Source: an uncultured Clostridiaceae bacterium (GTDB lineage: Bacteria > Bacillota > Clostridia > TANB77 > CAG-508). Taken from it: a stretch of DNA of 64,000 nucleotides. Made by a program: the position numbers and the translations under genes. Location of the stretch: positions 1 to 64,000 of the forward strand of contig CAKNOI010000001.1 in assembly GCA_930990125.1 (NCBI GenBank), given 5' to 3'. Below, piece by piece: positions 10,161-64,000 of the stretch (positions are counted from its first letter, which is position 1; the number at the start of each line of letters is the position of its first letter). Below the pieces are notes generated by a model. The model was given only the letters and a program-made list of their open reading frames with translations. It was not told the origin of the DNA and searched no databases.

Positions 10161-11840
10161 TTATTCCTCTGCATATCCTATAAAATAGTCTCCTACTTGC
10201 TCTATGGTAAATTGATTATCTTTTAATTCTTGCAACATACTTTCTAATGGGTGTAATAATACATAAACAGTATCTTTGTTGTATTCAGTAATATGATAAA
10301 AAGTGTATTTATCATAGGCATAAATGGTTTGATTACTATCTTTTTTCATCGTTTTCGAAAAATCTTCTGGAGTAATGTTACTAGCTAGTAGGGTATAAAT
10401 ATATGGTTCTTTTTTATAATAACCAGAATTCCAAGTTCGTAATTCGAAATGTATTTTTTTGTTTTGATATTTTTCTTCTTGGTTTACATACTTTGTAATT
10501 TCTGTAATACTATCATCAAAATAAGCATCATAAATTAAATCTGTATTATTTTTAAAGTCGGTAAAATAATACTGTTCAAAAATAGCAAAGTGTACAATAT
10601 ATACCAAAACAGTAGCTAGTAAAAACGATGGCAATTCCTTGGCAAAATAGAAAATACCCAGCATGGTAAAATATAACATTGGTATAAAAATTGCATTGGC
10701 CTTATTTATTTTAGGCTCTGCAATGAGTAACATACAAACATAGGTAGCAATCCACTGAAAGAGCATAATGCTACTAAATTCCATTTGTTTGTTACGAATA
10801 CTTTTTCCTGTTTTTATAACCGCTTCTACTAGTCCAATAATGGCAAAAGGAATAGAGATAATATATAAACTTCCAAATCCTTCTGGAACATTATACATCA
10901 TATCGTCGCCAAAGAATAGGATAATTGGCAAATTAAACCAATTCTTTTGTATATTGTTCCATCCTAGTTCTCCTCCACGATAAATAGGAAGTTCTGGTAT
11001 GCTTACGATAGGAAAGTCTACTTTAGGAAGTATATGGTTATTTAGTAATAACATATACATTAATGGAAGTGCTAATAGAAAAATAGGAATTCCTAAAAGG
11101 ATAACATTTTTCCATGTTATTTTTCGTATCCAAAGTAAATACAAAATAGTAAGACCCAAGAAAATAGGAACAATTACGTAAGATAACACATAAGTGTATA
11201 AGGTAAGACCTATCACAATTCCTGCTCCCACATAGCCAAGCGGTCTTTTTGCTTTACTAAGTGCTAATATCGAAAACACAAGCATAGAAGATAATAAATT
11301 ACAGTCTAGGCCCCACCTTGCTTGCATAATATGCCATGGGCAAGTAGCCATTAAAAAAAGAAGTAACAGGGCCATTTTTGTGTTTTTCCATTTTGTTACT
11401 ACTACATACATTGCTACCATTGCCATAATAGAAATAAAAACAATTGGTAGTCGAACAGACCACGCATTAATACCAAATATTCCTACAAAAGGACTAACAA
11501 GATAGGTACATAAAGCACTTTGCCCTTGTCCAAAATTGGTAAAATACAAAGGGTAGGAATTTCCATATCGATCCGTTCCATATTTCCAAATACAAGAAGC
11601 ATCATACGCCATTCCTGCTTCGTCAATATGTAGTCCTTGAGGAATACTACCTAATCCTATTATCCTTGCCAGAATACCTACTAACAAAATTGTCCCCAAT
11701 ATTATCTTTTTATGTGTTTCTATCCATGTATCTAGTTTTTCTTCTCTTGCTTTCTCCTTGTTTTTTTGCCTAACAAAGAAACCTATTACAATCACAACAA
11801 CCAGTATTAGCATAGAAACAACAGAAACTATTTCTATCAT
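10161..11840 (-). CDS. GT39/ArnT-like membrane glycosyltransferase
   Basis: A 559-aa GT-C type protein with an N-terminal helix (residues 4-24), then an extracellular loop containing GLGSIPQGLHIDEAGMAYD, the Asp-Glu motif typical of PMT/ArnT-superfamily enzymes. About ten more membrane helices and a soluble C-terminal domain (about 430-559) follow. Such enzymes transfer sugars from a lipid-phosphate carrier to an extracytoplasmic acceptor. It is translationally coupled to the YfhO-like gene, suggesting they decorate the same polymer. The acceptor cannot be read from the sequence. Confidence 0.78.
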   Translation of the reverse strand: MIEIVSVVSMLILVVVIVIGFFVRQKNKEKAREEKLDTWIETHKKIILGTILLVGILARIIGLGSIPQGLHIDEAGMAYDASCIWKYGTDRYGNSYPLYFTNFGQGQSALCTYLVSPFVGIFGINAWSVRLPIVFISIMAMVAMYVVVTKWKNTKMALLLLFLMATCPWHIMQARWGLDCNLLSSMLVFSILALSKAKRPLGYVGAGIVIGLTLYTYVLSYVIVPIFLGLTILYLLWIRKITWKNVILLGIPIFLLALPLMYMLLLNNHILPKVDFPIVSIPELPIYRGGELGWNNIQKNWFNLPIILFFGDDMMYNVPEGFGSLYIISIPFAIIGLVEAVIKTGKSIRNKQMEFSSIMLFQWIATYVCMLLIAEPKINKANAIFIPMLYFTMLGIFYFAKELPSFLLATVLVYIVHFAIFEQYYFTDFKNNTDLIYDAYFDDSITEITKYVNQEEKYQNKKIHFELRTWNSGYYKKEPYIYTLLASNITPEDFSKTMKKDSNQTIYAYDKYTFYHITEYNKDTVYVLLHPLESMLQELKDNQFTIEQVGDYFIGYAEE

Positions 11841-11858
11841 TGTTATTACCCCTATTCT

Positions 11859-12866
11859 TTATGATTTATCATACGAATACCCCAAATGATGATACGCATC
11901 TGGAAGTGCAATTCTTCCCCTTGGAGTACGGGAAATAAAGCCAATTTGCATTAAGTACGGCTCGTATACATCTTCTATTGTTTCTAACTCTTCCCCAGTA
12001 CTAGCAGAAAGTGCTTCTATTCCTACCGGTCCTCCATTATATTTTTCTATCATGGTACTAATTAGTCTTCTATCGGTTTCATCTAACCCTAATTCATCAA
12101 TTTCTAGTTTATGAAGCGCAATTTTGGCAATTTCTAAAGTAATGTTTCCATCGGCTAATACTAAAGCATAATCACGTACTCTTTTTAAAATACGATTGGC
12201 AATTCTAGGTGTTCCACGAGAACGCTTTGCTATTTCTTTGGCAGCATCTGGTGCAATACAAATACCTAAAATATTGCTAGAACGATTTACTATTTTTTCT
12301 AGGTCTTCTGGTGAATATAGCTCTAAACGTTCTACAATTCCAAAACGGTCACGAAGCGGAGTAGTTAAAGAACCTGCTTTGGTGGTAGCACCTATTAAAG
12401 TAAATTTTGGTAAATCTAAACGAATGGATCTAGCACTTGGTCCTTTTCCTATAATAATATCTAGTGTATAGTCCTCTAATGCAGGGTATAGTATTTCTTC
12501 TACCGCTTTACTCAGACGATGAATTTCATCAATAAATAGTACGTCAAAAGGAGCTAAATTGGTAAGTAGTGCTGCTAAATCCCCTGGTTTTTCTATAGCA
12601 GGTCCTGATGTAATTTTAATATTGGAATTCATTTCATTAGAAATAATATTAGAAAGGGTTGTTTTTCCAAGTCCTGGAGGTCCATATAGCAAAACATGGT
12701 CCAGTGGTTCCCCTCTTTTTTTTGCCGCTTCTATATATACTTTCATATTTTCTTTTACTTTAGTTTGACCAATATATTCGGATAATGTTTTTGGCCTTAA
12801 TGTATTTTCCAAACGTTCTTCTTGAACATCTTCTAATTCGGGTTTAATAATCTTGTCTTCGTCCAT
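11859..12866 (-). CDS. ruvB: Holliday junction branch-migration ATPase RuvB
   Basis: A 335-aa AAA+ protein with [12 protein letters not shown], Walker [10 protein letters not shown], Walker [11 protein letters not shown], the arginine-finger region [18 protein letters not shown] and the C-terminal winged helix (ISRTPRGR). RuvB rings drive branch migration with RuvA at recombination junctions. I chose ATG at 12866: a TTGCAC-17-TATAAT promoter (12883-12911) lies directly upstream, so the longer frame starting at 12911 would begin before the transcript. The only ribosome site is a modest GGTGAT. ruvA and ruvC are not in the window. Confidence 0.96.
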
Positions 12867-12882
12867 TTTTATCACCGTCTTT

Positions 12883-12911
12883 ATTATATCGATAAAAACT
12901 TGTTTGTGCAA
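12883..12911 (-). promoter_or_regulatory. Promoter of ruvB
   Basis: On the minus strand: TTGCAC, 17 bases, TATAAT. The -10 ends only 16 bases before the chosen ATG, which fixes the ruvB start. Confidence 0.75.
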
Positions 12912-12918
12912 CCTTCTT

Positions 12919-12947
12919 TTGTGTTTTTCTTTATTTTATGTTATAAT
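12919..12947 (+). promoter_or_regulatory. Promoter of the orphan gene at 12991
   Basis: TTGTGT, 17 bases, TATAAT on the + strand, divergent from the ruvB promoter. The two -35 regions lie almost back to back. Confidence 0.65.
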
Positions 12948-12990
12948 AAAAAGGAATATCAATTCTTTTTAGGAAAGGTGGGTGCTTTTG

Positions 12991-13347
12991 ATGTATCGGA
13001 AAGGTTTTGTTTTTGATTCTAGTTTTTTAAGATCCATTAATGACACTTCTTTCGAAAGGTTTGGACGTTATGTATTGGTAAAACCATTTGGAGCAATTAC
13101 TACACACCGAGAACTTGCCATTTACTTTATTGAAAAGTACTTTTCAGCAGCGTATCATATGCCAGAAAACAAAATCACGAACCCAGAGGATTTTATGGTA
13201 TTTGCTTTAAAAGCAGCACAAATTCGTTCACAAAGTACAAATTGCATTTTACTAGCCTTTGATAGTCCACTTGCAAGAGATGTTCGCTGGAGGCAAGAAC
13301 TAGGAATAGCAGACTACAAAGTAATTGTTTATAATGTAGAATTCTAA
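12991..13347 (+). CDS. Unknown 118-aa protein (orphan gene)
   Basis: A small soluble protein (MYRKGFVFDSSFLRS...). I recognise no family. It is mixed alpha/beta by composition, with no membrane segment or Cys cluster. The gene stands alone on the + strand, divergent from ruvB, with its own promoter and a strong terminator right after it. ATG at 12991 is chosen with GGTGG 9 bases upstream; in-frame GTG (12982) and TTG (12988) starts are possible. Codon 3 is CGG, a codon not found in neighbouring core genes. It belongs with the small CGG-using orphan genes at 29122, 33924, 50085 and 51551. Confidence 0.6.
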   Translation: MYRKGFVFDSSFLRSINDTSFERFGRYVLVKPFGAITTHRELAIYFIEKYFSAAYHMPENKITNPEDFMVFALKAAQIRSQSTNCILLAFDSPLARDVRWRQELGIADYKVIVYNVEF

Positions 13348-13363
13348 AACAATTTAGCACACC

Positions 13364-13397
13364 AAAAAGTCTATCTAACAGTTTAGATAGACTTTTT
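13364..13397. terminator. Bidirectional terminator between the orphan gene and rpiA
   Basis: AAAAGTCTATCTAA, short loop, TTTAGATAGACTTTTTT: a strong stem with A-rich left and T-rich right flanks. It can end both convergent transcripts. Confidence 0.85.
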
Positions 13398-13400
13398 TAA

Positions 13401-14099
13401 TTATTCCATAATACTTTCTATATGGTAACCAATAAATAATCCGCTTTCTAGGACACCTGTAATAGATTTTATTTTTTGTTCTAAGGTAGCATCAATAGAA
13501 GAAAAAAATACATCTAAAATAACATTTCCATTTTCGGTAATAACGGGACCGTCTTTTTTTACTGCCAAACGCAAGTCTATTTTAGTTGCTCCTATTTTTT
13601 TTAATTCTTCGGTAACCAAACATATGGCATTTGGGTATACTTCTACTGGTACAGGACATTTGGTTCCTAAAGTTTGTACCACTTTAGACTTATCTGCTAA
13701 AATATAGGTTTTAGTAGATGCCTTTATGTTTAGTTTTTCCTTAAACATGGCAGCTCCTCTTCCTTTTATTAACCAGCCATTTTCGTCTATTTCATCGGTT
13801 CCATCAAAACACCAATCTGGTCTTTTTTCTAATAAAGAAGCGGTTGGTATACAAAGCTTCGCACACAATCTTTTTATTTCGTAAGAAGTAGGAATTGCTA
13901 CTATCTTTAAATTCTCCTGTGCCACTCTTTTTCCTATTTCTATTGCTGTTAAAAAGGAAGTAGAACCAGAGCCAAAACCTATTACCTCTCCATTTTTAGC
14001 AAAACTTGCTACTTTTTTTGCTAGTTTTTCTTTTTCTTCTTTTTGTACAATTTCCTTTCCATAATTTATTTCACCTAATATTTTTTCATTCCATTCCAT
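13401..14099 (-). CDS. rpiA: Ribose-5-phosphate isomerase A
   Basis: A 232-aa RpiA. Motifs are GFGSGSTSFLTAIEIG (phosphate binding), IPTSYEI, CFDGTDEIDENGWLIKGRGAA (with the family's active-site acidic and lysine residues) and ADKSKVV. It interconverts ribose-5-phosphate and ribulose-5-phosphate in the non-oxidative pentose phosphate pathway. ATG at 14099 is preferred because AGGAG lies 8 bases upstream; the in-frame TTG at 14105 is too close to it. It converges on the orphan gene at 12991 and shares its terminator. deoB (52020) feeds the same ribose-5-phosphate pool. Confidence 0.95.
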   Translation of the reverse strand: MEWNEKILGEINYGKEIVQKEEKEKLAKKVASFAKNGEVIGFGSGSTSFLTAIEIGKRVAQENLKIVAIPTSYEIKRLCAKLCIPTASLLEKRPDWCFDGTDEIDENGWLIKGRGAAMFKEKLNIKASTKTYILADKSKVVQTLGTKCPVPVEVYPNAICLVTEELKKIGATKIDLRLAVKKDGPVITENGNVILDVFFSSIDATLEQKIKSITGVLESGLFIGYHIESIME

Positions 14100-14143
14100 A
14101 CACAAATCTCCTTATCTTTCTTTATACTATCTTTTTTTCCATT

Positions 14144-15232
14144 TTAATCTGCAATAAATTCTAGTACTCTTGCCACCAAGTGGTCTGGGTCCGCCGGCTC
14201 TTTTAATTTAAGTGTTGTTATTTCATGAAGATGAATACCATAATTATCTTGTAATACATAATCTTCTCTACCCAAAATGGTTCTTGTTTCCGGTGTTACT
14301 TCTACTAATAAATGAAATTGTACATCATATTCTCCTGTTTCAAACCAAATAAAAGTAACGCCGTCCTTTTCTTCTTTTTTACTAATGCTACCATCCATTT
14401 TTCCTTCTTGTAAAAAACTCTGTTTCATTGTATCTATTGTTTCTTTTGGCACCATGGATATGGTATCTGGAAACATCCAACCATCTTCATAATCTGCTGT
14501 TACCGTTATTTGGTCTCCCACCTTTACATCTGAACTATCTATTGTTTGCATATTTTCTATGTTGGTAATTACCATATCCTCAGTTAATCGTATTTTAGCA
14601 TTTTCTATTGGTTTTTTTCCAAAGTCATTTTCTATATATTCTAAGCCACCTTCTACTGTAATGGTATTTCCTTCTTTTTGGACAATATATCCTTTTAAAT
14701 ACTTTTCCTGCTTAGGAACCTTTACAGAAATGTCCTCTAAAGTAGTTCCTTGGTGGGTAATATAAAAGTGCAAATAATATATATCTGGGTTATAATAACT
14801 ATCCATGGTATAATATAAATGCATATTTTCATACTCTACCTTGCTTACTACATATCTAGAAGCAGTAGCCACAATGCTAGTATTACTATTCCATTTAGAA
14901 GATAAATCCTCCACCTCATAATTAGGAATAGCAAAAGCTGTAATAAAATTATCTACTTCATCTGCAGAATTTAATAGCATTTGATATATTTCCGTATCTT
15001 CACGTTTACTCATTTTATCTTGGTATTCTTGCGGAATAGCAGAAACCGCACTAAAAATAGAATACTCCTCATGTAAGGTTTTAGCTGCATTATCTTCGTT
15101 TTCCTCTACCTCCTGCATCTTCGCTAAAATCTCCTCTTCATCTATCTTCGTCTGAGTTGCCCATATTCCCACAAGAGCAAGAATAAGAGCTAGAATAGCA
15201 CAAATTATCACAATACTATACCATTTTTTCAT
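14144..15232 (-). CDS. Membrane-anchored extracytoplasmic protein, unknown
   Basis: A 362-aa protein with one N-terminal hydrophobic helix (about residues 5-24) and no lipobox Cys, followed by an acidic, soluble, beta-rich domain. I recognise no family. The region near residues 185-260 (KVGDQITVTADYEDG) looks like a small beta-barrel, but this is a guess. The start follows an AGGTGAT site. It lies 45 bases upstream of rpiA and could share its transcript. The accessory cassette begins on its upstream side. Confidence 0.55.
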   Translation of the reverse strand: MKKWYSIVIICAILALILALVGIWATQTKIDEEEILAKMQEVEENEDNAAKTLHEEYSIFSAVSAIPQEYQDKMSKREDTEIYQMLLNSADEVDNFITAFAIPNYEVEDLSSKWNSNTSIVATASRYVVSKVEYENMHLYYTMDSYYNPDIYYLHFYITHQGTTLEDISVKVPKQEKYLKGYIVQKEGNTITVEGGLEYIENDFGKKPIENAKIRLTEDMVITNIENMQTIDSSDVKVGDQITVTADYEDGWMFPDTISMVPKETIDTMKQSFLQEGKMDGSISKKEEKDGVTFIWFETGEYDVQFHLLVEVTPETRTILGREDYVLQDNYGIHLHEITTLKLKEPADPDHLVARVLEFIAD

Positions 15233-15258
15233 ATTTATATCACCTGTGCTTTATCATA

Positions 15259-15762
15259 TCATAAAATATGATTTTTTTCCATCCATTTAAAAAATTTAGG
15301 ATAGTCACCTTTAAATTGTGTCGGGTCTTGTTCAATTAATTTGCTTATTTCCTCTTTTGTCATATAATATATTGCTTGAATACCATCTTTATCATAATTT
15401 AATTCTTTATCATATACCAACTTATACATTTTAGAAAATGCACTCGTATCAATATCGTATGGTTTGAAATAAGCAATTTCTTGTAAAGTAACATTCGTTA
15501 TTCCTAATTCTTCTTCTAATTCTCTATAAGCTGCTTGTTCATAACTTTCACCAGATGCAACATGTCCTCCCACAGAGCAGTCATAACAATTTGGAAATAC
15601 TCTCCTGTTAGCACTTCTTTTAGGCACAATAATTTTATTGTCACTAGTAAATATCATTATGTTAATCACTCTGAAATTTCTCCAGTTATTTTTATAAATA
15701 ATGTCCCTATCTTCCTTTCCTATTACATTGTCATTTTCATCTACTAAATCTAAATATTCCAT
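15259..15762 (-). CDS. NUDIX hydrolase (IPP-isomerase/YfcD-like)
   Basis: A 167-aa NUDIX protein. The Nudix box GHVASGESYEQAAYRELEEE matches GX5EX7REUXEEXGU. The N-terminus (MEYLDLVDENDNVIGKEDR) and length match the subgroup that includes isopentenyl-diphosphate isomerase-like hydrolases, so a diphosphate-containing substrate is expected. It is the first gene, reading left to right, of an AT-rich accessory stretch with a nucleoside phosphorylase, radical SAM enzyme, HIT-like remnant and histidine phosphatase. The substrate is unknown. Confidence 0.85.
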   Translation of the reverse strand: MEYLDLVDENDNVIGKEDRDIIYKNNWRNFRVINIMIFTSDNKIIVPKRSANRRVFPNCYDCSVGGHVASGESYEQAAYRELEEELGITNVTLQEIAYFKPYDIDTSAFSKMYKLVYDKELNYDKDGIQAIYYMTKEEISKLIEQDPTQFKGDYPKFFKWMEKNHIL

Positions 15763-15819
15763 TTCTTTTTATGATTATTTTCTTAATAACCATATCCTCC
15801 CTCCTCTTCTGACCTATAA

Positions 15820-16608
15820 TTATCTATGTGCTTCTAAATTATCATTTTCAATTCTGTGTGCCAATTCTAAAGCAAGTACTGGTATTTTTGTTTTCTCGTT
15901 AAAATTGGATAATTGAGTTATACTTCTTTCTTCCCATTCCACAGAATCTAAATTATCTCCTGCATAATAAAAAGTAAAATAATGTAGTTTTTTATATTTA
16001 CAAATTGCTGCAATTGAAGCTCCTTCCATTTCTACACAAATTGCTCCTTTGTTTTTATACATTTCTATTTTTTCTCTAGTTTCCCTATAAAAAGCATCAA
16101 TTGTCCATGTGGCTCCTTCTGTATAATTAAACTTATATTCCTGCAATATCTTTTTAAATAAGTTAGTATATTTATTATCTAACTCAACATATTCTGAGTC
16201 TGGTAAATAATGGTAACTTGTACCCTCATCTCTATATGCCCTATTAGGAATTATTATTGAACAATCTTCAATATCTCTATCTAAAACCCCACAATTGCCA
16301 AAAATAATAAATGTATCTACGCCATTAACATTTAACTCTTCAATATCCTGACTTATCCAAGGTCCACTGATTCCAGCTATAAATAAAGTTATTTTAACAT
16401 TTTTATATTCTAGTATATAAACTGGACGTTTCTGCATTAATTCGCCAGATTTCGTACATTTGAATTTATTTACAATATCTTTAAATAAATGTTCAGAAAA
16501 AACCCCAATACCTATATGCGGCAATTTAATTTTAGAATCATGTATTCCTTCATTATTCTTTATTCCTTTAGGTTTTATAAATCCTTCTTCGTTACTATAT
16601 AATATCAT
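15820..16608 (-). CDS. Nucleoside phosphorylase superfamily protein
   Basis: A 262-aa protein of the PNP/UDP phosphorylase fold. Visible features are the IFGNCGVLD block, the VEMEGASIAAICKYKK block (the Met-Glu pair that contacts the ribose in this family) and a late YYAGDNLDSVEWEERS segment. Members cleave nucleosides with phosphate or water. The TFDxxYRE-like stretch TIDAFYRE resembles uridine phosphorylases. The gene ends 57 bases before the NUDIX start and is probably co-transcribed with it. Whether it serves salvage or a cassette-specific nucleoside cannot be told. Confidence 0.8.
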   Translation of the reverse strand: MILYSNEEGFIKPKGIKNNEGIHDSKIKLPHIGIGVFSEHLFKDIVNKFKCTKSGELMQKRPVYILEYKNVKITLFIAGISGPWISQDIEELNVNGVDTFIIFGNCGVLDRDIEDCSIIIPNRAYRDEGTSYHYLPDSEYVELDNKYTNLFKKILQEYKFNYTEGATWTIDAFYRETREKIEMYKNKGAICVEMEGASIAAICKYKKLHYFTFYYAGDNLDSVEWEERSITQLSNFNEKTKIPVLALELAHRIENDNLEAHR

Positions 16609-58912: not shown

Positions 58913-58949
58913 CAAAAAAGTATGCAAAAAATGACTTTTGCATACTTTC
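58913..58949 (-). terminator. Terminator of the dockerin/LRR gene
   Basis: AGTATGCAAAA, AATGA loop, TTTTGCATACT with a T-run on the minus strand. Confidence 0.85.
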
Positions 58950-58963
58950 TGATTTTTATCTAT

Positions 58964-61471
58964 TTAGTTTATTTCGTACTTTCCAAGTTTTGCTTTTATA
59001 ATAGCTAGGGCATCGGATGAATTTGGCTCTCCGCCTTTTTTTCTAGTGTTTTCTGTTATTCTTGCCGCTTCTAATTGCAAACTGGTTGGTATTTTTACCT
59101 TTCCGGTTCTGTTTTTTATAATCATTAAGGCATCTTTTGCAGATGGGTTTCCGCTTCCGGTTACATCTCCATAAATTAAAGCTACATATTCGTTTACTAA
59201 TTTTCCTTCTTTGTTGTATATTTGAATCGTTGCTCCTGTAAATAGATTATCTCCGGCTTGTAATTGTTTTGTTCCATCAAATGCTTTTGCTGTATAACCA
59301 GATTGCAGAGTATTACTTGATAATGCTTTTGATACTTCTAATTCTTTTACATTAAATCCAGTAAGTGCAACCAAACCATTATAATTGTCACCATATACTT
59401 CTTTTGGCTCTAGTGTACCTTCTTTAAAGTATACATTTTCCGTTTCTTGTAATTGTACTAATTTTGCTTCTCCTGCTAAATATAAAGCCCAAATGCTTCC
59501 ATCTTCTCTTAGGATAATGGTTCTGTCTGTATAATTTCTGTTGCTAAACTCCGCTAATCTTTGATAATCTGTAACATGAGTTAAAATTTCTTTTCCTCCT
59601 AAAGTTAAGACATTATTGGTATCTAGTTTTAAAGAACTTCCTTCTAACTTGTAGTCTGCTTTTTCTCCATTGTATATATATCTATAGACACCATCTTTAT
59701 CTACATAAATAGAATGATGTACCACATAATCTGCATTTTCTGCTTTTTTTATTGGTTCTGCATCCGAATAAACTTCCCATAATATTCCGGATGTATCTAC
59801 TACATAGTTATAACTTGCTGATACAATTGGGAAATTGCATACCAATTCATTTTTTACCGTATAGGTTTTTCCATCTGTTTTTACTAGGAAAGAACCTACT
59901 ATTTTTTCTACATTGCCAGCCACCGTTTTCCAAGTACCATCTGGTTGTATTTCTACATAAGTACCGTCGTTTTTTAAATATCCATTTTGATAAATATCTT
60001 TTGCATCGTTAAGTACAGAAGTTACACCATTAAAGGTATATTCTAGGCTACCATCTTTCTTAAGTAGTAGAGAATACGGAAATCCGTTGGTTTCGTCTGT
60101 ATAAACAACATTATATACTGCTTTTTTTACATTGGTTGCTACTTTTTCTGCTTTTTCATCACTAGCATAAATCTTCCATAGTTCTCCATTTGCTTTTAAT
60201 ACAGTTTGTCCATCTACAAAAGTGCTTCCCATTTCTGTTCCTAAAGCTTGGTCTGCTGAAATTCCATTTACTTTTATTTTAAAAGTTTTTGTAATACTTG
60301 AATCACTTTTTAATGTTGCAGTAATAGTTGCTTCTCCTATTTTGTTAGCATTAAAATATCCTCCGTCACTTGCTTGGGTATCCCCTGCTACTATAGTTAC
60401 TACATCATTGTTAGACTGAAAAGTAAATAAATTAGAAAGTTCTACTGGGAAATCTTTAAAATAGGTTCTTACTCTACCAGATTCTCCTAAATAGGCATTC
60501 ACATCTTTAAAAGTAATATTTTTGTATTGGTCTGCACCTGTTAAAGTAAGATCACTCATACTAAGATACTCTAAATTTTTTAATGTTGTTAATACATTTA
60601 TATTATTTACTTTTTCCCCATAAAGGACAACAGAAGTAATAGAATCTTTATTCTTTAAAAAGTCTAAATTTACTTCTTCTTGACTGCGGATCTCTACAAA
60701 TTGAAGATTCTTTGCATTAGCTAAATAAGAATAGTCGCCTAATCCATTGGTAATGGATACATTAAAATCAGATAATTGTTGTAGTTTACCAAGCTCGGAT
60801 GCATTTTGTACGATGATATTGTAAAGATCAATGTCTGTTAAATTGGATAGTTTACTAATCTTTGTTATATCTACTGTTGCTTTTGTTTGTACATTTACTC
60901 CTCCACCTGCTAACTGTAAACTAGTTAGGTTGGTTAATGTGGATAAAACATCTAGATTTTTAGGAAGTATATCATTCCCATAAATAGATAATGCTGTTAG
61001 TGTAGGAATATCTCGTAATACCTCATAATTGATAGTAACATTATCTGTTTTACCACCAGAAATATTCACTCTATTTACATTCTTAATGGTTTTTAAGAAT
61101 GATAAGTCTACACTTGTTATCTCTTTTTCTAATTCAAGAGAAACAAATACATCTTTTAAGTCTAATTTGCTAAAATCAAATTGTTTACCTGTATAACGAA
61201 TATTAATAGATTGCAAATTTTTTGCGTCTTCTAGTCCTTCAATACTTTCTACCTCTGGCGAAATAGAAACATAACTTACATTTTCTAGTTCTTCTTTGGT
61301 AACAATTCCATCAAGGTTGCTATCCGCACTAAGCCTAATAGAATCTGCTAATGCGCTATCTTTTATGTTTATTTCGCCTTCCGCAGCTAGTGTAATACTT
61401 GGCATGATAACAGGAACTAGTAACAAGATAATCATAAGTACACTAATCATTTTCTTATCTATACTAGACAT
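58964..61471 (-). CDS. Secreted leucine-rich-repeat protein with dockerin-like C-terminus
   Basis: An 835-aa exported protein. Signal peptide at residues 1-28 (cut after ITLAA). An EF-hand-like start is followed by leucine-rich repeats to about 350 (for example LTSLQLAGGGVNV and SDFNVSITNGLGDY). A Big_2-like Ig domain lies at about 350-400, then a long stretch of repeats with a W/Y-K-DG pattern (LLKKDGSLEYT, YVEIQPDGTWKTV). The C-terminal ~140 residues end in a dockerin pair: GDVTGSGNPSAKDALMIIKN and EPNSSDALAIIKAKLG. Dockerins bind cohesin domains, and a cohesin protein is encoded next to it. No in-frame CGG was found. No LPXTG-type motif, so attachment should be through cohesin. Confidence 0.85.
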   Translation of the reverse strand: MSSIDKKMISVLMIILLLVPVIMPSITLAAEGEINIKDSALADSIRLSADSNLDGIVTKEELENVSYVSISPEVESIEGLEDAKNLQSINIRYTGKQFDFSKLDLKDVFVSLELEKEITSVDLSFLKTIKNVNRVNISGGKTDNVTINYEVLRDIPTLTALSIYGNDILPKNLDVLSTLTNLTSLQLAGGGVNVQTKATVDITKISKLSNLTDIDLYNIIVQNASELGKLQQLSDFNVSITNGLGDYSYLANAKNLQFVEIRSQEEVNLDFLKNKDSITSVVLYGEKVNNINVLTTLKNLEYLSMSDLTLTGADQYKNITFKDVNAYLGESGRVRTYFKDFPVELSNLFTFQSNNDVVTIVAGDTQASDGGYFNANKIGEATITATLKSDSSITKTFKIKVNGISADQALGTEMGSTFVDGQTVLKANGELWKIYASDEKAEKVATNVKKAVYNVVYTDETNGFPYSLLLKKDGSLEYTFNGVTSVLNDAKDIYQNGYLKNDGTYVEIQPDGTWKTVAGNVEKIVGSFLVKTDGKTYTVKNELVCNFPIVSASYNYVVDTSGILWEVYSDAEPIKKAENADYVVHHSIYVDKDGVYRYIYNGEKADYKLEGSSLKLDTNNVLTLGGKEILTHVTDYQRLAEFSNRNYTDRTIILREDGSIWALYLAGEAKLVQLQETENVYFKEGTLEPKEVYGDNYNGLVALTGFNVKELEVSKALSSNTLQSGYTAKAFDGTKQLQAGDNLFTGATIQIYNKEGKLVNEYVALIYGDVTGSGNPSAKDALMIIKNRTGKVKIPTSLQLEAARITENTRKKGGEPNSSDALAIIKAKLGKYEIN

Positions 61472-61532
61472 AAATACTCCTCCTTATTTTCTTTATGTTT
61501 CCTACTTTTTCTATAGTAGGATTTTTCTTTTT

Positions 61533-61570
61533 TAAAAAACTCTACTGTTTTAAACAATAGAGTTTTGTTT
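61533..61570 (-). terminator. Terminator of the sortase-cohesin operon
   Basis: On the minus strand AAAACTCTATTGTTT pairs with AAACAGTAGAGTTTT, followed by TT. One mismatch. Confidence 0.75.
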
Positions 61571-61590
61571 TGTCGAAATTTTTTCACTTT

Positions 61591-62295
61591 TTATTTTCTT
61601 TTTGCTCTAATTATGCATGCTCCTAAAGTGATTACAGCTACTGCTACTAATCCATAGATTACATAGCTTACAACATTTACTCCTGCTTGTGGAATTTTGG
61701 TTGGTTTGTTAGTGTTTGTTGTTGGTTTTTCTGTATTTGCTGGTTTTTGTGTATTTTGTGCTGGTTTCTCGGTGTTTGTCTCTGGCTTTTCTGTGTTGGT
61801 GCTTGGTTTTTCTGTATTTGTTTCTGGTTTTTCTTCTTCAGCAGTTCCTATTTTTAGGGTTGCTTTTCCATAAGTATAGTCTTCTGGTGATTCTACATTT
61901 TCATCTGCTAAAATTGCTTCTGCTGTTGTGAAGGTTGCATCTCCATTTGCTTTTGCTTTAAAAGTATAGGTAATGCTATTTTTTCCTTGTCCATTCATAG
62001 AAAACCAAGAAATTTGTACTACTCCGTCTGCTATTCTATCGGTTGCTATGTAATCTTCTGACATAGAAGAAGATACATATTCTACTTTGTTTTTGTCAAA
62101 TCCTAATTCTAGGTCTATTGCTTCCATTTTGTCTTTCCAGCTTACGGTTACGGTTACTTCGTCTCCTACTTTTACTTGTGATTTGCTTACAGATACATTT
62201 AATTTTGCTGTTTTTTCTGTAATTGCTGCATTACTTACTGTTGCCATAGCTAATACTATGACCAATACTGTCATGATACTAATGATTTTTTTCAT
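61591..62295 (-). CDS. Sortase-anchored cohesin-domain protein
   Basis: A 234-aa protein: signal peptide (1-23), a single cohesin-like domain (about 30-150: AKLNVSVSKSQVKVGDEVTV, LELGFDKNKVEYVSS), a Thr/Pro/Lys linker of repeated TEKPxTN units (about 155-198) and a C-terminal sorting signal: IPQAG, hydrophobic helix and RAKRK. Sortases cleave such signals and attach the protein to the cell wall. Cohesins bind dockerins, so this is probably the cell-surface receptor for the dockerin proteins on either side. It is 18 bases downstream of the sortase gene. IPQAG departs from classical LPXTG. Confidence 0.85.
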   Translation of the reverse strand: MKKIISIMTVLVIVLAMATVSNAAITEKTAKLNVSVSKSQVKVGDEVTVTVSWKDKMEAIDLELGFDKNKVEYVSSSMSEDYIATDRIADGVVQISWFSMNGQGKNSITYTFKAKANGDATFTTAEAILADENVESPEDYTYGKATLKIGTAEEEKPETNTEKPSTNTEKPETNTEKPAQNTQKPANTEKPTTNTNKPTKIPQAGVNVVSYVIYGLVAVAVITLGACIIRAKRK

Positions 62296-62313
62296 TGTTT
62301 TTCCTCCTAAATT

Positions 62314-62949
62314 TTAATTTTGTTCTATATATTCTTGGGCTTTTACGATTAATCTTTGCATGCCTCCAACTGTGCAAGTAATTAAGGTTACTTCTCTTTT
62401 GCCAGGCAAAGAATCTTCAATACATTCCATTTCATCTGGGTTTACTACATAGATATTAAATACTTCATAAGTACAAATGCTTCCATCTTTTGCTGTAATA
62501 GTAAAAGTATCACCTATTTCTAATTCTTTTAACCTTTTAAAAAGATTTTTATAGTTATGTCCTATAATGCTAAAATTTCCTGCTTGATGTAGTTCTTGTC
62601 CCCAAAATCTAGTTACTGCTAAATTCAGACTTTCGTCTGTTGTTTCCTCTAAAATATATTGTTCCACATTAATTTTAGGTATTTCTATTTTTCCTAGGAC
62701 AGCATAACCTCCTATGGTATCTGGCATTGTTACATCTACTTTTTTTAGAACAGATAAACTTGGTCTTTTGTCTTCTACCACAACAGGCTCTGCAATAATA
62801 CTATTGTTATCTAAGCTTGCTGTGCCTTTGGGCATAGCTCCATAAATACTTACTGCACCAATAGCAAGTATCAATACTACTAAGATAATAATACTTATTA
62901 TAACTTTCCAGTGACCTTCTTGTCTTGCATGTTTTCCTGCCATGTACAA
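62314..62949 (-). CDS. Sortase
   Basis: A 211-aa sortase with an N-terminal membrane helix (about 16-38). Catalytic residues: His in IIGHNY (near 130), Cys in TLITCTVGG (near 190) and Arg in MQRLIVKA. The GKIEIPKINVEQ start of the core is typical. Class is uncertain; the partner's IPQAG signal suggests a class D-like enzyme. TTG at 62949 sits 6 bases after AGGAGG; ATG at 62943 is the alternative. Co-transcribed with the cohesin protein, its probable substrate. Confidence 0.9.
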   Translation of the reverse strand: MYMAGKHARQEGHWKVIISIIILVVLILAIGAVSIYGAMPKGTASLDNNSIIAEPVVVEDKRPSLSVLKKVDVTMPDTIGGYAVLGKIEIPKINVEQYILEETTDESLNLAVTRFWGQELHQAGNFSIIGHNYKNLFKRLKELEIGDTFTITAKDGSICTYEVFNIYVVNPDEMECIEDSLPGKREVTLITCTVGGMQRLIVKAQEYIEQN

Positions 62950-62977
62950 AGATTTCCTCCTTTTTACCCAATGAATC

Positions 62978-63032
62978 TTTTATCGTATAGGAAGGGTTTT
63001 CTTAAGCATAGGAACCCTCCTATACGGTAAAA
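62978..63032 (-). terminator. Terminator of the second dockerin gene
   Basis: On the minus strand TTTTACCGTATAGGAGGG pairs with CCCTTCCTATACGATAAAA across a loop; wobbles and one bulge. It separates this gene from the sortase operon. Confidence 0.75.
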
Positions 63033-63035
63033 ACA

Positions 63036-64000
63036 CTATCCTTCAATGGTATATTTACCAAGTTTTGCTTTTATAATTGCTAACGCATCAGATGAATTTG
63101 GAACACCACCTGTTTTTCTAGTGTTTTCTGTTACTCTTGCTGCTTCTAATTGTAAATTGGTTGGTATTTCTAATTTTCCTGTTTTATTTTTAATAATCAT
63201 TAACGCATCTTTTGCAGATGGAATACCTGTTCCCGTTACATCTCCGTAAATTAATGCTACATACTCGTTTACTACTTTTCCTTCTTTATTGTATATTTTA
63301 ACAATAGCTCCTGTAAAGAGTTTATCATTAGACTTTAATTCTTCTTTACCATCATAAGCTTTTGCTGTATATCCAGATTGAAGATTATTATTTGCTAATG
63401 CTTTAGATACCTCTAAATTATTAGTGTCAAATCCGGTAAGAGCCAATTTTGTATTCATAGAATCTCCGTATACTTCTTTTGTTTTTAATGTATTTTCTTT
63501 AAAGTATACATTCTCAGTTTCTTCTAGTTTTACAAGTGCTCCTTCTCCATCTAAGGTTAAAGTCCAGATACTACCATCTTCTCTTAAGATTACGTTTCTT
63601 ACAAGTGCTCCTGTATTATATTCTATTAAATATTGAAAATCAACAACATTTGTTAATATTTCCTTTTCTCCAAGGTATAATTTTCCGTCTAATGCTAGTT
63701 TTAAATCTTCTGATCTTTTCTTTTGCTCTAATTCTTTTCCAGATTGTATTACTCTATATGTCCCATCTTTATCTACATAAGAATCTCCAGCAGCAAAGTG
63801 GTCAAATCCATCCCTTAATTTAATTGGATTTTTTGCATCTGTTATATTCCAAATTGTACCAGATTCATCTACAACATACTCATAGCTTGCAGCTATAATT
63901 GGGAAATCACATATTAATTTATTATTAATAGAATATGTTTTTCCATCTGTTTTTACTAAGTATGAACCTACTATTTTTTCTACATTTGTTGCAACAGGAT
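63036..64000 (-). CDS. Dockerin-like secreted protein, paralogue (5' part outside window)
   Basis: The frame is open to the window edge; only the C-terminal ~320 residues are visible. They match 58964-61471 closely: NVEKIVGSY, the DESGTIW-type repeats, GFDTNNLEVSKALANNNLQS, and the dockerin pair GDVTGTGIPSAKDALMIIKN and VPNSSDALAIIKAKLG. The ATG at 63458 is internal. As with its paralogue, it should be secreted and bind the neighbouring cohesin protein. The duplicate copies suggest the locus expands by tandem duplication. Confidence 0.85.
   Translation of the reverse strand, partial: PVATNVEKIVGSYLVKTDGKTYSINNKLICDFPIIAASYEYVVDESGTIWNITDAKNPIKLRDGFDHFAAGDSYVDKDGTYRVIQSGKELEQKKRSEDLKLALDGKLYLGEKEILTNVVDFQYLIEYNTGALVRNVILREDGSIWTLTLDGEGALVKLEETENVYFKENTLKTKEVYGDSMNTKLALTGFDTNNLEVSKALANNNLQSGYTAKAYDGKEELKSNDKLFTGAIVKIYNKEGKVVNEYVALIYGDVTGTGIPSAKDALMIIKNKTGKLEIPTNLQLEAARVTENTRKTGGVPNSSDALAIIKAKLGKYTIEG

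Follow-up and report, generated by a model that had tools for sequence, protein, structure and literature searches.

We examined a stretch of 64,000 nucleotides (here called the window) from an uncultured Clostridiaceae bacterium (GenBank assembly GCA_930990125.1, contig CAKNOI010000001.1, positions 1 to 64,000), at the end of which lies a putative surface-display operon with genes for a cohesin protein, a sortase and two leucine-rich repeat (LRR) proteins with dockerin-like tails. The window is part of contig C1 of a 1.38 Mb genome, which is assembled in 53 contigs and is 97.9% complete. In the list of open reading frames (ORFs), four minus-strand frames are found here, all of them open (58964-61471, 61591-62295, 62314-62949 and 63036-(64000)), and in the direction of transcription they encode LRR_B, the sortase, the single-cohesin protein and LRR_A. 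A preliminary description of this DNA had placed a sortase, a small cohesin protein with an IPQAG signal and two dockerin-tailed LRR proteins side by side, and the four genes and their order proved to be as described. The features are as follows.

63036..64000, minus strand: 3' part of LRR_B, an LRR-beta-dockerin protein; the whole gene encodes 828 residues (window-equivalent 63036-65522, L011:5037-7523)
62314..62949, minus strand: sortase, 211 residues, with a TTG start at 62949 preceded by AGGAGG, or an ATG at 62943
61591..62295, minus strand: single-cohesin anchor protein, 234 residues (PF00963, AF2, Foldseek and a PDB sequence profile)
61681..61695, minus strand: IPQAG sorting pentapeptide at residues 201-205, with a hydrophobic stretch and RAKRK behind it
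58964..61471, minus strand: LRR_A, a secreted protein of 835 residues (ORF, AF2, Foldseek and dockerin profile)
58967..59173, minus strand: dockerin module of LRR_A, YGDVTGSGNPSAKDALMIIKNRTGK...RITENTRKKGGEPNSSDALAIIKAKLGK, with two near-symmetric repeats (alignments)
58917..58950, minus strand: terminator-like hairpin and T-run, AAAGTATGCAAAAGTCATTTTTTGCATACTTTTTT, about 15 nt past the LRR_A stop (terminator scan)
65525-67219, window-equivalent (L011:7526-9220): Wzy_C ligase-like membrane protein, 564 residues

Upstream of LRR_B, beyond the window, come the Wzy_C-type membrane protein and then a transglutaminase-dockerin protein, which brings the operon to six collinear genes, separated by gaps of 119, 18, 86, 2 and 72 nt and with AGGAGG-like sites ahead of most starts. 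What had been taken for a compact, self-contained 5-kb unit is instead one section of this operon and contributes to the four cohesins and nine dockerins found across the genome. The transglutaminase protein is secreted and contains transglutaminase and Big_2 domains; its triad C558/H595/D610 is intact, and its internal dockerin passes the PF00404 cut-off with 27.5 bits. Judging from the sequence, the hairpin at 58917..58950 is the probable end of the operon, the total count of the terminator scan being equal to chance (5 vs 4.9). A promoter scan of the operon gave counts near chance (67 vs 60) and was not used.

The 234-residue protein consists of a signal peptide, a cohesin domain (about residues 30-150), a linker rich in Thr, Pro and Asn (about 150-198), the sorting signal, a C-terminal hydrophobic helix and RAKRK. 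The Pfam cohesin family PF00963 matched it with 25.9 bits, marginally above the gathering cut-off of 24.1, and BatD (PF13584) tied with it at 26.0 bits. Because the two families tied just above their cut-offs, the protein was modelled with AF2 using 22 family sequences. The model has nine strands, the eighth and ninth being separated by a short helix, with pLDDT mostly >85 across the cohesin domain. When it was compared with the PDB by Foldseek, 26 of the first 27 matches were cohesins. The NagJ cohesin of C. perfringens came first (E 3.5e-9; TM over the target, 0.74), and the matches included 2jh2, 2w1n, 2xdh and 5lxv as well as ScaC and, lower, ScaE of R. flavefaciens. Cohesins also came first when a sequence profile was run against PDB sequences (NagJ cohesin, E 1e-11). 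The preliminary description had named another immunoglobulin (Ig)-like fold as the outcome that would undo its proposal; AF2 and Foldseek upheld the nine-stranded jelly roll of cohesins, and an identity as BatD was rejected, since the fold matches cohesins. It is very improbable that the protein is an Ig-like adhesin or spacer of the BatD or DUF11 kind that adjoins dockerin genes by coincidence: PF13584 does score as high as PF00963, but the Foldseek and PDB-profile matches are cohesins, and cohesins and dockerins lie together in 19 of 20 relatives compared with 0 of 18 controls (sampling described below).

With a signal peptide, a single cohesin and a C-terminal sorting signal followed by a hydrophobic helix and a basic tail, the protein resembles a ScaE-like anchor, except that the pentapeptide is IPQAG instead of LPXTG. 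The pattern [FLIM]PQ[TA]G occurs at three places in the genome, namely as IPQAG in the window cohesin only, as IPQTG on C44, and once within a pheT-like gene, in line with the non-classical sorting signal noted earlier. The sortase matched PF04203 with 89.7 bits and contains His131 (in GHN; codon start 62559), Cys192 (in TLITC; 62376) and Arg199. Its scores against the NCBIfam sortase classes all fell below the cut-offs (class C, 69.9 bits against 160; D, 44.7 against 165; E, 44.2 against 160; F, 24.8 against 166). This sortase would pair with the IPQAG signal of its neighbour. Elsewhere on C1, at about 74 kb (L011:15958-16552), a sortase gene is broken into two overlapping frames and adjoins a small protein with LPNTG; in the related genome G040 a sortase is split in much the same way (L091:1527-2163).

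LRR_A comprises a signal peptide, an LRR region (about residues 40-330), an Ig-like or beta domain with many short hairpins (about 340-680), an X-like beta module (about 700-765) and the dockerin (767-832), and its AF2 model has a mean pLDDT of 79. LRR_B is 57% identical to it. The LRR region is internalin-like, the top Foldseek matches being internalins A, B, F and H, and this fold is the sole basis for the earlier suggestion that the LRR proteins are adhesins. In agreement with the preliminary description, neither LRR protein has a carbohydrate-active domain. Within the LRR_A dockerin, AF2 predicts helices at 778-788, 797-812 and 818-828, and in the alignment the helix motifs of the two repeats are near-symmetric (DALMIIKNRTGK and DALAIIKAKLGK). 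A profile made from the dockerins of this genome matched the LRR_A tail, itself one of its sequences, with E 2.2e-28, and the LRR_B tail, which did not contribute to it, with 2.4e-26. Both tails thus contain a duplicated helix repeat homologous to true dockerins, and a profile search found PDB dockerins weakly (E 1.5e-4). In Pfam, the LRR_A tail remained below the PF00404 gathering cut-off (13.7 vs 22.9 bits), and the best Pfam stretch of LRR_B was an N-terminal EF-like loop, not the tail.

We also looked at the Wzy_C protein and its neighbours in a family sample of 390 draft genomes from 39 genera. Strong full-length homologues were found in 6 of the 390, and in all six a protein with the beta domain of LRR_A and LRR_B is encoded next to Wzy_C (the best blastp E values of these proteins range from 2e-12 to 5e-125), although in G140 it is next but one, past the cohesin gene. 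The beta-domain protein carries a dockerin in G000, in G140 and, with its gene broken into two frames, in G040, and all three clusters contain a cohesin and a sortase. In the other three genomes it has, in place of a dockerin, three SLH domains (G376), a different repeat (G028) or fn3 (G119). The dockerin can thus occupy the position that an SLH anchor has in homologous proteins, and from these sequences it appears to stand in for a surface anchor on the beta-domain proteins. The same neighbourhoods suggest the Wzy_C protein as a candidate O-glycan transferase that may glycosylate the displayed proteins. A role as universal partner was rejected, such homologues being present in only six genomes.

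Profile searches, on which the genome-wide counts rest, detected four cohesins in four separate proteins, and the dockerin profile of the genome recovered exactly nine modules:

C1 (window): cohesin with IPQAG
C19: cohesin with LPKTG; sortase and glucosaminidase adjacent
C12: cohesin with LPKTG
C1 end: cohesin with a membrane helix and cadherin-like repeats
Nine dockerins: LRR_A, LRR_B, two transglutaminases (C1 and C16), glucosaminidase and amidase (C11), two Ig-like giants (C12) and a C1-end fragment

There are also eight sortase matches. The glucosaminidases are similar to peptidoglycan enzymes of the SagB and AtlE types, and the glutamate of their QEVG motif is invariant. The genome search for more dockerins and PQAG substrates that had been proposed thus yielded these nine modules and, for IPQAG, the window cohesin alone. 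The expectation of adhesins rather than cellulases as cargo held in so far as no cellulases were found; the cargo is wider than adhesins, since a transglutaminase, a glucosaminidase and a peptidoglycan amidase belong to it here and relatives add a papain-like peptidase. The module classes are the same as in cellulosomes and the C12 set adjoins a cyclic-glucan-synthase/GH94-like gene, so a reduced cellulosome- or amylosome-like complex was considered, in which the LRR and Ig proteins would attach to polysaccharide and bring in enzymes that degrade glycans. We find this quite improbable: glycoside hydrolases (GH), polysaccharide lyases, carbohydrate esterases or carbohydrate-binding modules for plant polysaccharides were found on 0 of the 9 dockerin proteins, the glucosaminidase and amidase target peptidoglycan, and only single-cohesin proteins, no multi-cohesin scaffoldin, were seen in the genome.

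In the family sample, PF00963 matched in 329 of the 390 genomes and 38 of the 39 genera, and it also matched in another family of the same order; the window dockerin module matched in 237 of the 390. Sporulation genes read in the ORFs, one SigK-like (L092) and one SpoIIIAA-like (L013), together with the small genomes would fit a Clostridia-like family, perhaps in the GTDB order TANB77. We took the neighbourhoods of 20 dockerin matches (in list order, start >=10,000, one per genome, not previously fetched, extending 9.5 kb to either side); the same genomes supplied control stretches, of which 18 were usable, two contigs being too short. A cohesin was present at <=10 kb from the dockerin gene in 19 of the 20 relatives and a sortase near it in 16, whereas both counts were 0 of 18 in the controls. 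One operon, consisting of an LPxTG cohesin, a sortase, a glucosaminidase-SH3-Big_2-dockerin protein and a membrane cohesin, is shared by 13 of the 20, so that the commonest arrangement displays a cell-wall enzyme and not cellulases; as the query selects its nearest relatives, the sample represents a single dockerin type. The window-type operon is rarer and recurs in the genomes G040 (IPQAG) and G140 (YTQAG), which belong to two other genera, as a cluster of LRR-dockerin protein, QAG cohesin, sortase and Wzy_C. The sortases beside the QAG cohesins of the window, G040 and G140 form a clade with a support of 99/100, apart from the sortases of LPxTG cohesins. A similar dockerin type was found on papain-like peptidases in G021 and G050, beside membrane and LPxTG cohesins. 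When the LRR_A dockerin module was searched against 84,980 species genomes, one weak relative was obtained (UBA7004); the stretch of it that was examined contains a dockerin and lacks a cohesin. Earlier reports of the window system were not found in the open-access literature.

Some other arrangements were noticed in these data. The family-wide four-gene operon is seemingly split in the genome studied here between the contig ends L017:11900-12087 (C19) and L013:5643-5912 (C1, minus strand). The break falls inside the glucosaminidase-dockerin gene (EYQI / VIYGDV), a stop closes the C19 frame 44 nt short of the end of its contig, and joining the contig ends failed for lack of overlapping sequence; an inserted repeat, a mobile element or an assembly break is possibly responsible. 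Some relatives have dockerin and cohesin in one chain, similar to an adaptor scaffoldin (L103:8109-11573; L117:14787-18470; G342:C10:17913-18557; G164:C4:65932-66588), and cohesin matches also occur within open frames of 4,200-6,400 residues (G385:C22, G165:C4, G206:C6 and others).

Taking together the genes, folds, catalytic residues, operon conservation, co-localisation and module swap, we consider it probable that the window holds a non-cellulosomal cohesin-dockerin display operon that works in the following way. The cohesin protein would be secreted and fixed covalently to the peptidoglycan by the neighbouring sortase via IPQAG instead of LPxTG, and the wall-fixed cohesin would form a socket there. 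Both LRR proteins and the transglutaminase protein encoded upstream would be secreted without an anchor of their own; their dockerins, which are alike, would keep them on the cell surface by binding to the window cohesin. The near symmetry of the two dockerin repeats would probably allow either orientation. A role in binding or adhesion is probable for the LRR-beta proteins, whereas the transglutaminase-like enzyme is more likely to alter or cross-link proteins or peptides of the surface. Parallel cohesin/dockerin sets in the genome carry peptidoglycan hydrolases and Ig-like giants; cohesin-dockerin pairing would therefore be the general surface-attachment system of the organism. The window system is real and looks functional, and the cohesin-dockerin interaction in it is inferred.

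Several points weigh against this reading. The calcium loops of the LRR dockerins are degenerate and neither is DxNxDG: the first reads DVTGSGNPSAKD, and the second is non-canonical, with a four-residue insertion and the usual ligands missing, so the alignments of the LRR_A and LRR_B tails do not contain two canonical 12-residue loops (DxNxDGxxxxxD). The sorting signal in G140 is YTQAG, not IPQAG, and the assignment of each dockerin to one of the four cohesins is deduced from gene neighbourhood only. The main ground for caution on the window LRR dockerins is that in R. flavefaciens the dockerins of LRR proteins failed to bind any cohesin tested (PMC5301203). This result, the degenerate loops and the Pfam score of the LRR_A tail would fit tails that have degenerated and do not bind the window cohesin, which would then serve the transglutaminase or other dockerins, while the LRR proteins are released or otherwise held. 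We regard this as unlikely, because the tails are conserved (LRR_A vs LRR_B 85%, vs G040 74% and vs G140 58%), the helix motifs above all, the dockerin module sits where homologues have SLH, and the LRR genes accompany the cohesin in three genera.

The display mechanism can be compared with known systems, of which the nearest working model is that of R. flavefaciens. There, symmetric group-4 dockerins attach in dual orientation to ScaE, a sortase-anchored protein with a single cohesin (PMC5301203), and group 4b dockerins are found on transglutaminases and an LRR protein within one operon; group-4 dockerins were proposed to help structure the cell surface (PMC2930009). Both systems have a single cohesin on a sortase-anchored protein and symmetric dockerins on transglutaminases and a peptidase. 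ScaE, however, anchors a full cellulosome and has LPXTG, whereas here there is IPQAG, a sortase next door and no cellulosome, in a 1.4-Mb genome. The C. perfringens NagJ cohesin (GH84C; 2jh2/2w1n/2o4e/2ozn), nearest by fold and sequence profile, is likewise non-cellulosomal, but it is a module of a secreted glycosidase and not a stand-alone wall anchor. The Limousia mucinolysome (PMC12997984) is a gut cohesin-dockerin complex, likewise beyond cellulose degradation, and has one LPxTG-anchored cohesin protein (cSca5); its multi-cohesin scaffoldins and mucin-degrading enzymes were not found here. The dockerin-bearing peptidoglycan hydrolases of the parallel sets and of the family-wide operon recall the proposed 'lyticome' (PMC6403190 and work cited there), which was reported in cellulosome producers, whereas here they belong to a conserved operon of an uncultured family and a genome without a cellulosome. 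The window operon is not a cellulosome and would work like ScaE with group-4 dockerins.

To our knowledge, cohesin-dockerin pairing has been studied almost solely as the glue of cellulosomes. The retention of four cohesins and nine dockerins in a 1.4-Mb genome, and the recurrence of the core four-gene operon in most sampled relatives, make the older suggestion of a role in structuring the cell surface testable. In addition, dockerin and SLH appear as interchangeable anchors on homologous proteins, and the system offers a sortase with an unusual PQAG signal together with natural, probably orthogonal cohesin-dockerin pairs. More tentatively, and with chances that we put slightly below even, small-genome, Clostridia-like bacteria of a large uncultured family, and of one or more sister families, may use several parallel cohesin-dockerin pairs, each with separate anchors and often a separate sortase, for general fixation of surface proteins independently of polysaccharide degradation; the cargo would cover wall hydrolases, transglutaminases, peptidases, and LRR and Ig proteins, and the Wzy_C protein of the window operon may glycosylate it.

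Other parts of the genome were noted in passing. On C12 (L015:11972-17334), a serine-recombinase element with an AbiEi/AbiEii-like pair is seemingly inserted in the cyclic-glucan-synthase/GH94-like gene, the last part of which recurs past the element (junctions QYTHV.. / QYTHA..). Two neighbouring very large surface proteins are encoded on C2 (L158:6689-11779 and 11795-16000), the first with a terminal LPPTG and a sortase alongside.

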